From Bacteroidota bacterium (GTDB lineage: Bacteria > Bacteroidota > Bacteroidia > Flavobacteriales > Flavobacteriaceae): 6,792 nucleotides of DNA. Positions 1-6,792 of the stretch are shown one piece after another. The translations under genes and the position numbers were made by a program. The number at the start of each line of letters is the position of its first letter. The stretch's first letter is position 1. The DNA lies in the NCBI GenBank assembly GCA_015767395.1, contig JADWMI010000130.1, positions 1 through 6,792 on the forward strand, given 5' to 3'. The notes under the pieces were generated by a model. It was not told the DNA's origin, did not search any database, and worked only from the letters and a program-made list of their open reading frames with translations.

Positions 1-266
1 GATTCAAATGGTTTCGAAAGATAAATCACGTCATTATAGTCACCACCAACATCTCGCCTAGTAGCCTTTACGAAATCTATCATACCAACGGCTGGCATAG
101 CCCAAATGGCAGTCTGTGTAGCACGTTGAACCAGCATTTGATAGTCTATAGTACTTTCCTTGACTAAATTCCTTTGTGCTTTTGAGTTTTTAGTTTCTGT
201 TTTTTGATTGCAGGAAAGCAATGAAATTAAAATAATTGCTGAGCAAAGTATGTTTTGTGTTTTCAT
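1..266 (-). CDS. DUF1254-like lipoprotein, N-terminal part (runs off left edge)
   Basis: The minus strand from the ATG at 264-266 reads 88 uninterrupted codons to the window edge, so the gene continues to the left. Residues 1-18 form a short Lys-start hydrophobic signal (ILCSAIILISLLS) ending in a lipobox-like LLS-C with Cys19, so the product is probably a lipoprotein exported across the inner membrane. After a polar linker (about 20-38) comes YQMLVQRATQTAIWAMPAVG and then a segment with RRDVGGDYNDVIY, residues about 42-82. This resembles the start of the DUF1254 domain, where a conserved 'QRA..AYIWAMP' helix precedes a Gly/Asn-rich turn; such proteins usually also carry a C-terminal DUF1214 domain, which would lie outside this window. 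The biochemical role of the family is unclear. The start is preceded by a run of A residues, as is usual in Bacteroidota. The family call rests on motif memory only. Confidence 0.68.
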   Translation of the reverse strand, partial: MKTQNILCSAIILISLLSCNQKTETKNSKAQRNLVKESTIDYQMLVQRATQTAIWAMPAVGMIDFVKATRRDVGGDYNDVIYLSKPFE

Positions 267-932: not shown

Positions 933-1037
933 AAGAAAATTTCTTTGAATCAACTTAGTTGTAATTAAGATTATATGATAACGACAAAAAGCACAACCTT
1001 TTTAAGGGATAATAATTTAAAATTAAAAACAAGAAAA

Positions 1038-1409
1038 ATGAGTTTATCGAATCAAGAAAATGAAATTTTAGGAAAAATGAATGAAGTATTGGATTTATTA
1101 GCTGAAGGTCAGTTTATTAAAGCAATGACCGAGTATTTAGCGGATGATGTGCAGCTATCTGAAGGAAATAATCCTCCTAAAGTTGGAAAAGCGTTTTGTC
1201 TTGCTGAAGAAGAAAAATTATTAAGCACTGTAGTTGAGTTTGGTGGTTATAATGTAATTAGTGGACCTGCGGTAAAAGGAGATACTACTTTTTATGAAGT
1301 TGTAATGGAGTTTAAAACTAATGATGGTGCTGCACATAGATTTGAGCAAGCAGTAAGATCACAATGGAAAGATGGAAAAATAATTAACGAGCGTTATTAC
1401 CACGCATAA
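1038..1409 (+). CDS. SnoaL/NTF2-like small protein
   Basis: A 123-residue protein with the pattern of an NTF2-like cone fold. An N-terminal amphipathic helix (about 5-38; NEVLDLLAEGQFIKAMTEYL) is followed by ADDVQLSEGN, a second short helix around KAFCLAEEEKLLS (51-63), then alternating beta strands to the end (YNVISGPAV, TFYEVVMEF, RFEQAVRSQW, IINERYYH). SnoaL-like proteins are cytoplasmic pocket proteins that act as isomerases, hydrolases or ligand binders; nothing here fixes the substrate. I chose the ATG at 1038 because it follows an A-rich run and begins where the fold begins. An in-frame ATG at 975 would add 21 polar residues (MITTKSTTFLRDNNLKLKTR and one more Lys) that look like translated leader. 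It precedes the antiporter operon on the same strand, but a 375-bp gap with a palindrome suggests separate transcription. Fold call fairly sure, role unknown. Confidence 0.8.
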   Translation: MSLSNQENEILGKMNEVLDLLAEGQFIKAMTEYLADDVQLSEGNNPPKVGKAFCLAEEEKLLSTVVEFGGYNVISGPAVKGDTTFYEVVMEFKTNDGAAHRFEQAVRSQWKDGKIINERYYHA

Positions 1410-1784: not shown

Positions 1785-3023
1785 ATGTTTAATATCCTTA
1801 TAGGAATTACTGCACTGGCAGCGTTATTGAGTTTTTTGAATGCTAAATTCTTAAAACTTCCAGAAACAATAGGCGTAATGATTCTTTCTATTATTATATC
1901 GTTTTCAATAGGAAGTTCAATATACCTTATTGATAAAGAGTATTTTATGAGTATATATCCACTTATGAAACAAATAGATTTTAAAATAATTTTATTTGAT
2001 TTTTTATTGGGAATATTATTGTTTGCAGGAGCTATACATGTAAATTTAAAAGGTTTACTTAAAGAAAAAAAAACAGTATTTATTTATGCCACTCTTGGCG
2101 TATTAACTTCTACTTTTATAATAGGTACAGTATTTTATTATGTAGTTTCATTAATCGGATTAGATATTAGTTACTTATATAGCTTGGTTTTTGGAGCTTT
2201 AATTTCGCCTACAGATCCTGTTGCTGTGTTGGCTTTATTAAAGAAAGCTGGAGCGCCAAAACATATGGAAATTAAAATTGTGGGAGAATCACTTTTTAAT
2301 GACGGTGTTGGTATTGTAGTTTTTTTGTCATTACTCTCGTTAGCTACCATGATGAGTGAATTTGATATATCACATATTTCTGCTGAATTAGGAAAGGAAG
2401 CTGGAGGTGGATTTTTAATGGGATTGATTTTAGGGTATTTAGGAAAAATATTTATTAGAAGCGTTGCCAAAGAACCAGTAATTGCAGTGCATATTTCTTT
2501 AGCAATTGTTTTAGGAGGTTATAGTTTATCATCTTTATTTCATGTTTCTGGAGCTATTGCAATGGTTGTTGCAGGACTGATTATAGGTGATAGCTTACAT
2601 TCAGAAAAAATTTCCAATGAGCTAAGAAATCACATGAATATTTTTTGGAAAGTACTAGATGAAATTTTCAATGCAGTTCTTTTTGTACTTATTGGTATCA
2701 TAATAATTACGGTTGATTTTAATATTCACTACCTTTTATTAGGAGTAATTAGTATCTTTATTGTTGTTATTTCGAGATATATCACCATTTTTATTTCTAA
2801 TTTTCTTCTGAAAAAATCGGATCGTGCAAACTTTAAAGAACGAAAAATTTTAACTTGGGCTGGTTTACGTGGCGGAATTTCAATTGCATTAGCATTATCA
2901 CTTCCAGAAGGAGAAGTTAAAGATATTATTCTATATGCAACTTATGTAGTGGTGGTGTTTTCAATTATTGCACAAGGATTAACTATAGAAAAACTCATTT
3001 CAAAATCATTTAAAAAAAACTAA
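1785..3023 (+). CDS. Na+/H+ antiporter, CPA1 (NhaP-like) family
   Basis: A 412-residue, strongly hydrophobic inner-membrane protein with about 12 predicted helices and the usual length for bacterial CPA1 exchangers that lack a C-terminal regulatory domain. Family signatures are clear: LFAGAIHVNLKGL (79-91); SPTDPVAVLALLKKAGAP (141-158), the broken-helix TDP motif; GESLFNDGVGIVVF (167-180) with the Asn172-Asp173 pair that binds the transported cation in electroneutral CPA1 proteins; and WAGLRGGISIALALSLP (358-374), the conserved Arg/Gly helix. It exchanges cytoplasmic Na+ (or another monovalent cation) for external H+, serving pH and salt homeostasis. The ATG is 3 bp after a decayed coding fragment. 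The stop lies only 5 bp before the Rieske-PoxB gene, so the two are almost certainly co-transcribed. No clear promoter of the TAnnTTTG type is visible just upstream. Ion specificity cannot be read from sequence. Confidence 0.93.
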   Translation: MFNILIGITALAALLSFLNAKFLKLPETIGVMILSIIISFSIGSSIYLIDKEYFMSIYPLMKQIDFKIILFDFLLGILLFAGAIHVNLKGLLKEKKTVFIYATLGVLTSTFIIGTVFYYVVSLIGLDISYLYSLVFGALISPTDPVAVLALLKKAGAPKHMEIKIVGESLFNDGVGIVVFLSLLSLATMMSEFDISHISAELGKEAGGGFLMGLILGYLGKIFIRSVAKEPVIAVHISLAIVLGGYSLSSLFHVSGAIAMVVAGLIIGDSLHSEKISNELRNHMNIFWKVLDEIFNAVLFVLIGIIIITVDFNIHYLLLGVISIFIVVISRYITIFISNFLLKKSDRANFKERKILTWAGLRGGISIALALSLPEGEVKDIILYATYVVVVFSIIAQGLTIEKLISKSFKKN

Positions 3024-3028
3024 AAAAT

Positions 3029-4978
3029 ATGGCTACAACTAAAAAATGGTATAGTGTACTAAAAGACAAAAAGACATTGCCAGAAGGTCGTGTACAAACC
3101 GTAACCGCTGGTCATCAAGGTATTTGTTTAACACATTACAATGGCAAATTTTCTGCATTGGATAATAAATGTCCGCATCAAGGAGGTCCTTTAGGTGAAG
3201 GCTCTATTGAAAACGGAATGCTCCGTTGTCCTTGGCACGGTTGGGATTTTGACCCATGTACAGGAACGCCTCCAGGAGGTTTTGATGATGGTGTAAAAAC
3301 TTTTGTAGTAAAAGAAGAAGGTGATGAGATTTTTATAGCAATAGATGAAGAGGAAACACACCAAGACACCATCTCTGATGTGATGATAGAAACCATGGTA
3401 AATTGGGGTGTAGACACTGGCTTCGGAATGGTTGGTCACTCTAATTTAGGTGTTGCAGATGCGATGAGGCGTTTAGAAGAGCAAGACAAATTTCAGTTTT
3501 TTGGTATTCGTCATGAAGGTGCTGCTGCGTTTGCGGCTTCGGCTTATGGAAAACTAATGGGAAAACCAGCAGTTTGTTTTGGTATTGCAGGTCCAGGTTC
3601 TACCAATATGTTTACAGGTATGTGGGATGCTAAAGTAGACCGTTCTCCTATGTTAGCGATTTCAGGTCAAGTGAACACACAGGTAATAGGAACTGGTGCC
3701 TTTCAAGAAGTAGATTTAGTTGGTGCCTTTCAAACAGTAGCCAACTTTAACCATAGTGTGCAGCAAAACTCAAAACATAGCGAACTAATGAGTTTAGCTA
3801 TAAAAAGTGCCTTATTGAATAGAGATGTATCACATATAACATTTCCAGATGAAGTGGCTTTTATGCAAAAACCAGAAGGTGAAGAAGCACAAACACCAGA
3901 AGGCAGAATTACACCTATGAACATTTCGCCACCAAGGCAAATGGTTGCAAAAGCAGTAGATATGTTAGAAAATTCTAAAATGCCTGCTATTATTGTTGGG
4001 CATGGCGCACGTTTTCATATGAAAGCCATTACGGCATTTGCAGAAAAATTAAACTGCCCAGTAATTACTACGTTTAAGGCAAAAGGGCAAATTTCTGACC
4101 ATCACGATTTAGGTTGCGGTGTATTAGGAAGAAGTGGAACACCAATTGCCTCTTGGTTTATGAACGAAAGTGATTTGTTACTAGTATTTGGAGCATCGTT
4201 CTCTAATCATACAGGAATCACACCTAAAAAGCCAATTATTCAAGTTGATTATGACCCTACAGCTTTAAGTAAGTTTCATAAAGTAGATGCCGCACTTTGG
4301 GGAGAGATTTCTGAAACTTTATCTATTATAGAAGAACAAACGGAAGGCAAATTGAATACCGTAGACAGACGTTCAGAAATTGAAGAACGTTGGGCCATTT
4401 GGAGAGAAGAAAAAGCAAGTCGATTAAAAGATGAAAGTAAGGTTGGTTTAAGTTCTATTGCCGTTTTTGAAGCCATGAATAAAGTTGTTCCTGATAACGC
4501 AGTAATTGCTGTAGATGTAGGAAATAACACCTACTCTTTCGGGCGTTATTTTGAACCTAAAAACCAATCTGTTTTAATGTCTGGTTATTTAGGATCCATA
4601 GGTTTTTCATTACCTGCAGCAATGGGAGCTTGGGCAGCACAAGGAAAAGACAGACCAATTTGGTCGGTTTCTGGTGATGGTGGTTTCGGTCAATATTTAG
4701 GTGAAATGATGACCTTGGTTAAATACAACATGAACATCAAGCACGTATTGTTAAACAACTCTGAAATTGGAAAAATTGCTAAAGAACAAAAAGCAGCCGA
4801 ATTAGATGTTTGGAAAACATCTTTGCACAATGCAAATTTTGCTAAATACGCAGAAAACTGTGGAGCATTAGGTATTAGAGTAACAAAACTGGAAGAACTA
4901 CTACCAGCTTTAGAACAACTAAAAGCACACAATGGTCCTGCATTATTAGAAATAATAACAGATGCAACTTTAATATAA
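3029..4978 (+). CDS. Rieske [2Fe-2S] domain fused to a PoxB-like thiamine-diphosphate oxidase
   Basis: A 649-residue soluble protein with no signal peptide. Residues 1-107 are a ferredoxin-type Rieske domain: CPHQGGPLGEG gives Cys48/His50 and CPWHGWDFD gives Cys67/His70, the full ligand set. From about 113 to the end it follows pyruvate oxidase (PoxB/POX). The ThDP pyrimidine domain has the catalytic Glu163 in RHEGAAAFAASAYGK, then GIAGPGSTNMFTG (185-197) and GTGAFQEVDL (221-230). The central nucleotide/FAD-type domain is about 300-435, and the ThDP diphosphate domain has GDGG (549-552) and NN (576-577) in IKHVLLNNSEIGKIAKEQ. LHNANFAKYAENCGALGIRV (599-618) closely matches PoxB. Predicted reaction: oxidative decarboxylation of pyruvate or another 2-oxo acid, with electrons leaving through flavin and the Rieske cluster. 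PoxB's C-terminal membrane-binding tail is absent. Acetolactate or sulfoacetaldehyde-type chemistry is less likely. It follows the antiporter by 5 bp and precedes the YHS gene by 22 bp. Confidence 0.9.
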   Translation: MATTKKWYSVLKDKKTLPEGRVQTVTAGHQGICLTHYNGKFSALDNKCPHQGGPLGEGSIENGMLRCPWHGWDFDPCTGTPPGGFDDGVKTFVVKEEGDEIFIAIDEEETHQDTISDVMIETMVNWGVDTGFGMVGHSNLGVADAMRRLEEQDKFQFFGIRHEGAAAFAASAYGKLMGKPAVCFGIAGPGSTNMFTGMWDAKVDRSPMLAISGQVNTQVIGTGAFQEVDLVGAFQTVANFNHSVQQNSKHSELMSLAIKSALLNRDVSHITFPDEVAFMQKPEGEEAQTPEGRITPMNISPPRQMVAKAVDMLENSKMPAIIVGHGARFHMKAITAFAEKLNCPVITTFKAKGQISDHHDLGCGVLGRSGTPIASWFMNESDLLLVFGASFSNHTGITPKKPIIQVDYDPTALSKFHKVDAALWGEISETLSIIEEQTEGKLNTVDRRSEIEERWAIWREEKASRLKDESKVGLSSIAVFEAMNKVVPDNAVIAVDVGNNTYSFGRYFEPKNQSVLMSGYLGSIGFSLPAAMGAWAAQGKDRPIWSVSGDGGFGQYLGEMMTLVKYNMNIKHVLLNNSEIGKIAKEQKAAELDVWKTSLHNANFAKYAENCGALGIRVTKLEELLPALEQLKAHNGPALLEIITDATLI

Positions 4979-6034: not shown

Positions 6035-6053
6035 AGGTTAAGATAAATAACCT
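6035..6053 (-). repeat. Hairpin overlapping the stop codon of the minus-strand gene
   Basis: AGGTTA (6035-6040) and TAACCT (6048-6053) are exact reverse complements with a 7-nt loop. On the minus strand the stem begins within the TAG stop codon (6052-6054). No T-run follows, so if it acts as a terminator it would be a weak one; it could also mark an mRNA 3' end. Confidence 0.3.
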
Positions 6054-6792
6054 ATTTCTTTCGCCTTGCTCTCCAATAGTTAATATAGTGAGCTTGAGTA
6101 ATAAGCCCAACAGATCCTTTATAAAGACCTCCAAGTTCTCCTGCATCCAGAACTTTTACAATTAAAATATTTTTACCGTTATTATTTAAGGCTTCTATTG
6201 GTAGATAATACCCTCTTAGTTGTTTATGAAAATCTGGATTATTATGAAGTGCTTTTTTATCAAAATCCCCAGATTGACCAATAAGTTTTCCATTAAGATA
6301 AACCTGATCTAAATCGTCAATTTTTCCAAGAACCAATACCATCCTTTCACCTTCAAATTCATTGCTTAAATTAAATTCAATAGCATAACTTGCTATACCA
6401 TCATAACTTTTGTAACCTTGATTTTCCCAAATACCAGGAACTATAATTTCGTCCCAATCGGAAAAATTCCATGCTCCATTCTTTACAATTTTACAATCAC
6501 CTGTTTTAAATTTCCAAGTGCCCTGTAAATCATAATCAACAGGAATAGCATCAAAATCAATCATTATTCCTATGTTTCCATGAATTATACCACCTTCCCC
6601 GCCTTCGTCATATACACGAATAGCTATGGAATTTTCACCATTAGTTTTTAATATGTTTTTTGGAATTCTGTAGATTCTATTTGCATTATAGGCTGTTGTG
6701 TAATTATTTGGAAAAGAACCCGTTTTGCCAATTAAATTTCCATTAATATACACTTCATCAACATCATCAATATAACCCAAACTTAAATACAA
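6052..6792 (-). CDS. Protein with tandem galactose-binding-like (GH2-type) beta-sandwich modules, C-terminal part
   Basis: The minus-strand frame is open from the right edge (the first codon, TTG, is an internal Leu) to TAG at 6052-6054, giving 246 residues; the true start lies outside. Two related modules are visible. The first has LSLGYIDDVDEVYINGNLIG (3-22) and AIRVYDEGGEGGIIHGNIGI (57-76). The second has LVLGKIDDLDQVYLNGKLIG (153-172) and VKVLDAGELGGLYKGSVGLI (212-231). Between them, LQGTWKFKTGD (89-99) and DWDEIIVPGIWENQGYKSYD (112-131) with DGIASYAIEF resemble the N-terminal jelly roll of GH2 beta-galactosidases and related carbohydrate-binding or sensor ectodomains. The 'DDVDEVYINGxLIG' strand is the core of that fold. 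Likely an exported sugar-binding or glycan-active protein; no catalytic domain is in view, and the C-terminus (INYWRARRKK) has no sorting domain. It is transcribed towards the operon and converges with it. Confidence 0.75.
   Translation of the reverse strand: MYLSLGYIDDVDEVYINGNLIGKTGSFPNNYTTAYNANRIYRIPKNILKTNGENSIAIRVYDEGGEGGIIHGNIGIMIDFDAIPVDYDLQGTWKFKTGDCKIVKNGAWNFSDWDEIIVPGIWENQGYKSYDGIASYAIEFNLSNEFEGERMVLVLGKIDDLDQVYLNGKLIGQSGDFDKKALHNNPDFHKQLRGYYLPIEALNNNGKNILIVKVLDAGELGGLYKGSVGLITQAHYINYWRARRKK

Follow-up and report, generated by a model that had tools for sequence, protein, structure and literature searches.

What does a Rieske iron-sulphur domain do at the front of a thiamine diphosphate (ThDP) enzyme? 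The question is raised by a stretch of 6,792 nucleotides (nt; contig JADWMI010000130.1, from a member of the Flavobacteriaceae), here called the window, in which one open reading frame (ORF) of 649 residues encodes both parts. We use the short name RT for this Rieske-ThDP fusion enzyme of marine bacteria. Our tentative answer is that RT would be a 2-oxo-acid oxidase whose electrons leave via its own Rieske domain into a Rieske-based relay. Two further, unrelated Rieske fusions are often encoded close to RT, and the pattern suggests an undescribed electron-sharing system among Rieske-carrying enzymes.

RT is a single uninterrupted ORF in which four Pfam domains were found far above their curated cut-offs, namely the Rieske domain (PF00355, residues 7-80, 59.7 bits against 20.3) and TPP_enzyme N, M and C (109.2, 111 and 114 bits against 26.8, 30.4 and 21.9). 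It carries the Cys-X-His...Cys-X2-His ligands of a Rieske centre and, as in the POX/AHAS group of ThDP enzymes, the N/M/C domains, a catalytic Glu and the GDG...N metal/ThDP motif. The original prediction, made from the DNA letters, had placed Cys48, His50, Cys67, His70, Glu163, GDGG at 549-552, NN at 576-577 and the stretch LHNANFAKYAENCGALGIRV in one frame, and had called this an unusual architecture for a ThDP enzyme. All of these were located as claimed, and the fusion is real. Two genes joined by an assembly error are ruled out by the same architecture in the relatives and by the four cluster ligands, kept in 101 of 101 representatives.

In a database search all 120 listed matches (the best 120 of 8000 scored) combined PF00355 with TPP N/M/C in 647-651 residues, and a repeat search with a Pseudomonadota member as query again gave PF00355 and the three TPP domains in 120 of 120 listed matches. 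A genome scan confirmed at least 581 relatives, and 80 loci were kept, with every match starting at residue 7 or before. The fusion was found in Bacteroidota, Pseudomonadota, Acidobacteriota, haloarchaea and on one Mycobacteroides plasmid, so that RT, first treated as a lone protein, is one member of a family spread over five or more groups of phylum rank. Among the best 15 of 1592 plasmid records, full-length fusions were seen in four haloarchaea (56-58% identity) and in Mycobacteroides abscessus (51.5%); these top five matches (51.5-57.9%) cover the Rieske part, whereas those ranked 6-15 have 29-35% identity and 8 of the 10 begin at residue 93 or later, past the Rieske part. A survey of the architecture, which had been proposed together with the domain search, found it recurrent across phyla yet uncommon in evenly drawn panels: with the centre genome, chosen for having RT, counted in each case, Bacteroidota have RT in 7 of 247 genomes, Pseudomonadota in 5 of 299 and Acidobacteriota in 10 of 149. 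The phylum labels of the panel genomes (numbered with G) were taken from the named centre record. As a side observation, Winogradskyella psychrotolerans (L025) has two RT-like ORFs (647 and 586 residues) with an antiporter-family frame between them.

For the alignment, 341 sequences with >45% identity over >560 residues, or found as top database match, were reduced to 332 distinct sequences and then to 101 representatives (<85% identity). Cys48, His50, Cys67, His70, Glu163, Lys582, Lys585, Glu586 and Gln587 are invariant in all 101, a count in which sequences that had lost the whole Rieske domain could not appear, because near-full-length sequences were selected. Position 577 has Asn in 99 sequences and Asp in the other 2, and position 576 is Asn in 68, His in 31 and another residue in 2. 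The conservation bears on the alternative that RT is a non-oxidative carboligase or decarboxylase of AHAS/HACL type, with a Rieske domain that is structural or serves for docking only. We consider this improbable, as the four cluster ligands are invariant and redox partners are linked to RT.

In the first of these partners, Rieske-Glt, a Rieske domain is joined to a flavin mononucleotide (FMN) domain of GltB type (PF00355 + PF01645, 295.7 bits). The second, FRD-Rieske, has a membrane domain resembling ferric reductases and, at its C-terminus, a Rieske domain (PF01794 + PF00355); its MsrQ match was below cut-off. Neighbours were clustered over the 80 loci and the window, and recounted with tblastn over 105 loci (the window, L001-L085 and L113-L131); as the loci stop at contig ends, all neighbour counts are lower bounds. 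In the recount Rieske-Glt was found in 67 loci, FRD-Rieske in 36 and a further gene, for the OB protein, in 35. The corresponding numbers in 51 dereplicated loci were 29, 17 and 17, with either Rieske partner in 32 and both in 14. The strand was shared with RT by 29 of 29 Rieske-Glt and 15 of 17 FRD-Rieske genes. In the non-centre Pseudomonadota, Rieske-Glt, FRD-Rieske, the OB protein and RT run on one strand in four of four genomes, whose RT proteins are 90% identical in one pair and 73-78% in the others. Dereplication removed two haloarchaeal loci (L083, L084), both with Rieske-Glt nearby, and on a Halorubrum plasmid Rieske-Glt lies about 17 kb from RT.

Both partners keep their putative cofactor ligands. 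In FRD-Rieske, His86, His98, His168, His181 and the Rieske ligands are kept in 31 of 31 sequences, with a His spacing that we take to be that of bis-haem ferric-reductase domains. The Rieske ligands of Rieske-Glt are kept in 60 of 60, together with Cys451, Cys457 and Cys462, presumably of the 3Fe-4S type. In ten loci picked for holding all three fusions, the Rieske domains of RT and FRD-Rieske share 33-53% identity (local alignments of 50-109 columns) and those of RT and Rieske-Glt 24-36%; RT and FRD-Rieske form the closest pair in 10 of 10 loci by score and in 9 of 10 by identity, the exception being L126. The OB protein (cluster c7, L054:11562-12344 and relatives) was observed to have one long N-terminal helix followed by beta domains, and gave no family match; its Cys165, His178, Cys181 and Cys185 are invariant in all 25 sequences aligned (26 were available).

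The association was also seen at the level of whole genomes. We counted FRD-Rieske in the Acidobacteriota panel, Rieske-Glt in the Pseudomonadota panel and both in the Bacteroidota panel, excluding centre genomes and using match thresholds that we set ourselves. By Fisher tests that were one-sided and not corrected for kinship, as throughout, FRD-Rieske was enriched in RT genomes of Acidobacteriota (9 of 9 against 2 of 139 RT-free genomes, P = 7.5e-13). Five of the nine RT proteins are near-identical (about 97%), and with these collapsed the counts are 5 of 5 against 2 of 139 (P = 4.4e-8). In these five genomes and in G612, RT and FRD-Rieske are on other contigs or >0.7 Mb apart, which indicates that their co-occurrence is more than linkage. 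Rieske-Glt, with its Rieske part matched, was found in 4 of 4 RT genomes of Pseudomonadota against 6 of 294 (P = 6.5e-7), while 25 further genomes, including the centre, match the Glt part only. In Bacteroidota the same protein was present in 5 of 6 RT genomes against 29 of 240 (P = 2.1e-4), with 6 more genomes matching the Glt part only, and FRD-Rieske in 3 of 6 against 5 of 240 (P = 4.4e-4).

Besides the lack of kinship correction, several observations weigh against a relay that includes RT, or against a tight system of all three proteins. Neither Rieske-Glt nor FRD-Rieske is encoded within the window, which extends 3.0 kb upstream and 1.8 kb downstream of RT; in the 93% identical relative L001, Rieske-Glt lies upstream of RT, where the window has an antiporter gene, and the antiporter gene of L001 is downstream of RT. 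Nineteen of the 51 dereplicated loci, some of them short contigs, have neither partner, including two haloarchaeal representatives and one actinobacterial representative. The two Shewanella RT loci are without Rieske-Glt, FRD-Rieske and the OB protein, and in the Shewanella genomes (G003, G004) FRD-Rieske was not found and the glutamate-synthase-like matches exclude the Rieske part. The Bacteroidota centre genome G001 has RT and no FRD-Rieske, G137 has RT and neither partner, and the five Acidobacteriota with near-identical RT are without Rieske-Glt at the threshold used. Finally, Rieske-Glt is commoner than RT (34 against 6 of 246 Bacteroidota genomes) and stands beside FRD-Rieske in 4 of 20 RT-free Bacteroidota loci (20 of the 29 available). 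As Rieske-Glt is the commoner gene and sits with FRD-Rieske also where RT is missing, RT would be at most an optional input, and the core system may consist of Rieske-Glt and FRD-Rieske, with RT as one input. In the RT-free Rieske-Glt loci we also noted, by eye, histidine ammonia-lyase-like genes (L144, L145, L146) and imidazolonepropionase-like genes (L135, L144, L146), members of a route that ends in glutamate.

The predicted model of RT (predicted local distance difference test, pLDDT, 89.8; predicted template modelling score, pTM, 0.88) was used for a fold search. The nearest fold is that of the pyruvate oxidase of Lactobacillus plantarum (LpPOX; entries 1pow, 4fee and 2ez4; Foldseek ranks 1-7, with 25-27% identity in the ranked rows), and E. 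coli PoxB (EcPoxB; pyruvate:quinone oxidoreductase; 3eya, 3ey9) is also among the nearest. RT and LpPOX have in common the ThDP motif, the catalytic Glu and a Glu followed by Gln at the position of LpPOX Glu483, which is Glu586 of RT in the alignment; in LpPOX, Glu483 has a role in electron transfer. RT differs in its added N-terminal Rieske domain and in Lys582, which occupies the position of LpPOX Phe479 and PoxB Phe465 (a number derived from the alignment), presumably the active-site Phe. The LpPOX numbering has an offset of 8, which agrees with the naming of variant F479W in the 2ez4 entry title. PoxB residue 531 of 572 aligns with residue 648 of 649 in RT, so the C-terminal tail of PoxB, which is membrane-binding, is absent from RT.

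The designation 'PoxB-type' in the original prediction therefore holds for the POX-like fold and is otherwise too narrow, as the POX cut-offs were missed, the PoxB tail is absent and the Phe479 position is an invariant Lys. With the NCBIfam models RT scored 395.2 against a cut-off of 742 (PRK08611) and 312.6 against 637.85 (SpxB) as pyruvate oxidase, 301 against 792 (PRK09124) as ubiquinone-dependent pyruvate dehydrogenase, and 291.9 against 538.35 (TIGR00118) as AHAS/acetolactate synthase. Where databases name RT proteins, the names are generic (e.g. 'pyruvate oxidase', 'acetolactate synthase large subunit', 'thiamine pyrophosphate-binding protein'). RT should be classed neither as pyruvate oxidase nor as PoxB, and the names 'pyruvate oxidase' and 'acetolactate synthase', given automatically to some RT proteins, call for caution. 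The replacement of the active-site Phe by the invariant Lys582 gives a hint that the substrate may be more acidic than pyruvate.

In relatives, the M domain holds a site for flavin adenine dinucleotide (FAD) or ADP. Its stretch GASFSNHTG in RT, of which Gly388, Ser390, Phe391, His394 and Gly396 are invariant in the family, differs from LpPOX and PoxB. The fold matches of RT include ADP-bound enzymes, a point against a retained FAD; we take some of the fold neighbours to be enzymes without redox FAD. Both points would fit a flavin-free RT, in which the Rieske cluster directly oxidises the ThDP intermediate in one-electron steps, as pyruvate:ferredoxin oxidoreductase does with 4Fe-4S clusters. 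RT has however kept the POX-type Glu-Gln pair, and we give the flavin-free enzyme a low probability.

The data show the architecture, the fold, the conserved ligand sets of the three proteins, their gene linkage and their co-occurrence. For the cofactors bound, the topology, the class of substrate, the direction in which electrons flow and the partner in the relay, we infer the following course as the simplest one that fits these findings. RT would be a cytosolic ThDP-dependent 2-oxo-acid oxidase of POX/AHAS fold, in which Glu163 would activate ThDP and the 2-oxo acid would be decarboxylated. The enzyme-bound intermediate would be oxidised, most likely through FAD, and the electrons would be passed singly to RT's own Rieske [2Fe-2S] cluster rather than to O2 or, by means of a tail, to quinone. 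From there they may be handed to a partner with a Rieske domain, chiefly FRD-Rieske, whose haem b would carry them on to quinone or to the periplasm; on the periplasmic side there may be a protein anchored in the membrane and bearing an invariant Cys3His set. Rieske-Glt would be connected to this relay as a further enzyme of the cytosol. Dioxygenase-type Rieske centres have potentials of about -150 to -100 mV and menaquinone of about -75 mV, values that allow the direction from RT to quinone. It is also possible, as a more speculative extension, that three unrelated enzymes, the ThDP oxidase, the FMN/3Fe-4S Glt-like enzyme and the haem-b membrane reductase, form a 'Rieske bus', trading single electrons from Rieske to Rieske; neither NAD(P)H nor free ferredoxin would then be needed to wire cytosolic 2-oxo-acid and glutamate-type chemistry directly to quinone or to an acceptor in the periplasm.

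The original prediction had offered a built-in electron exit, an entry or a redox sensor as the role of the cluster. The exit is the reading best supported, through the linked genes, and the other two are kept as rivals. With reversed flow, Rieske would bring electrons in, either from quinol via FRD-Rieske or from a linked FMN_red flavodoxin-like protein, and so keep the flavin reduced or drive a reduction. The usual task of dioxygenase-type Rieske ferredoxins is to supply an enzyme with electrons, and FMN_red-type neighbours were found in 5 of the 51 loci, including that of Mycobacteroides at 56% identity. We nevertheless find an entry quite unlikely, as Glu586 at the LpPOX Glu483 position fits oxidation and no NAD(P)H-dependent partner was constant in the loci read.

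The sensor is considered here with the genes directly beside RT, which are given with the other features of the window in the table below.

Features of the 6,792-nt window
Feature	Position	Strand	Basis or remark
Gene cut by window end	3-266	-	Lipoprotein-like N-terminus; no family match
144-residue protein	975-1409	+	Sub-threshold SnoaL-like match
CPA1-type cation:proton antiporter	1785-3023	+	PF00999; ends 5 bases upstream of RT
RT, Rieske-ThDP fusion enzyme, 649 residues	3029-4978	+	ORF (ATG at 3029, stop codon ends 4978), Pfam, database relatives, conservation, model, fold search
Rieske [2Fe-2S] domain, dioxygenase-ferredoxin kind, residues 7-106	3047-3346	+	PF00355; nearest solved sequences 2qpz, 5bok, 4emj
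Cys48-Pro49-His50 codons, first ligand pair	3170-3178	+	Sequence; 101/101 representatives
Cys67-Pro-Trp-His70 codons, second ligand pair	3227-3238	+	Sequence; 101/101 representatives
TPP_enzyme_N (Pyr) domain, residues 114-231	3368-3721	+	Pfam
Catalytic Glu163	3515-3517	+	101/101 representatives
TPP_enzyme_M domain, residues 306-432	3944-4324	+	Pfam; binds FAD or ADP in relatives
TPP_enzyme_C (PP) domain, residues 496-642	4514-4954	+	Pfam, alignment, conservation
GDGG (549-552)	4673-4684	+	Within TPP_enzyme_C
NN (576-577)	4754-4759	+	Within TPP_enzyme_C
Lys582	4772-4774	+	Within TPP_enzyme_C
Glu586	4784-4786	+	Within TPP_enzyme_C
YHS-domain (seleno)protein-type gene, 127 residues	5001-5384	+	NF041384 above cut-off; starts 22 bases downstream of RT
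Gene cut by window end	6052-6792	-	Beta-galactosidase-type sugar-binding domain matches

Given the short gaps and the common strand, the antiporter, RT and YHS genes probably form one transcript. Beyond the window itself, the antiporter family was counted in 17 of the 51 dereplicated loci (16 on the RT strand) and in 53 of 105 in the tblastn recount; the YHS-domain family is present in 6 of 51 and 23 of 105. The potential of a Rieske cluster depends on pH, and the cluster could act as a redox or pH sensor that switches the ThDP enzyme while lying off the catalytic electron path. In addition to the antiporter counts, an antiporter identified by Pfam in the Pseudomonadota loci L114 and L116 and by annotation in Halorarius and Mycobacteroides speaks for such a sensor, as does the short linker of about 7 residues (107-113) between the Rieske and Pyr domains, which is confidently placed in the predicted model (blocks with pLDDT 88 and 96). 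A sensor leaves unexplained the linkage to two other Rieske fusions and the co-occurrence with a membrane protein, and we regard it as unlikely.

Some further neighbours were observed. In the Acidobacteriota locus L062, RT is followed by a 129-residue gene that resembles in kind, by eye, the 144-residue protein of the window. Cluster c14 (e.g. L017:17322-17951) is near RT in 15 of 81 records, and one scanned member matches PycTM (Pycsar effector, PF18967). An NAD(P)H-hydrate epimerase-type gene, so named in a Haloferax record, lies beside RT or Rieske-Glt in Bacteroidota and haloarchaea (upstream of RT in L007-L010, L041, L059 and L060; L085:11101-11832; L086:2-793) and is a neighbour common to two domains of life. 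In Pseudomonadota, L114:9963-13130 holds a dCache sensor histidine kinase and a sigma-54-type response regulator after RT.

The electrons of known ThDP oxidases go either to 4Fe-4S clusters or, by way of FAD, to O2 or quinone. An exit through a Rieske domain of the enzyme's own would, if true, add a third route, and RT would be, according to the searches made, the first known case of a ThDP enzyme that gives off electrons by way of a Rieske cluster. Among the best-ranked matches in the open-licence PMC literature we found no paper on the Rieske-ThDP fusion and none on the triple association of RT, Rieske-Glt and FRD-Rieske; one candidate, PMC5676040, was rejected, its matched passage merely citing an author named Rieske. 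With two further Rieske fusions often alongside, a domain oddity becomes a testable system across Bacteroidota, Pseudomonadota and Acidobacteriota, and the putative cofactors of all three proteins are visible optically or by electron paramagnetic resonance (EPR), which offers a clear entry for laboratory work.

Each of the three proteins has known counterparts. FRD-Rieske shows the same PF01794-PF00355 pairing as a ferric reductase domain fused to Rieske that is already in print as domain model M4 (PMC3591440, 2013), and the passages of that paper on the model make no link to ThDP or glutamate-synthase-like Rieske fusions. Rieske-Glt has PF01645 and three invariant Cys in common with the FMN/3Fe-4S domain of the glutamate synthase GltB; unlike GltB, it has its own Rieske domain and, in the two members scanned, no amidotransferase domain. 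The Rieske ferredoxins of aromatic dioxygenases (2qpz, 5bok, 4emj) have the same Cys-X-His/Cys-X2-His ligands in a domain of about 100 residues and are separate carriers, whereas the Rieske domain of RT is fused to its ThDP enzyme. RT may be likened to a 2-oxo-acid:acceptor oxidoreductase with a built-in ferredoxin.
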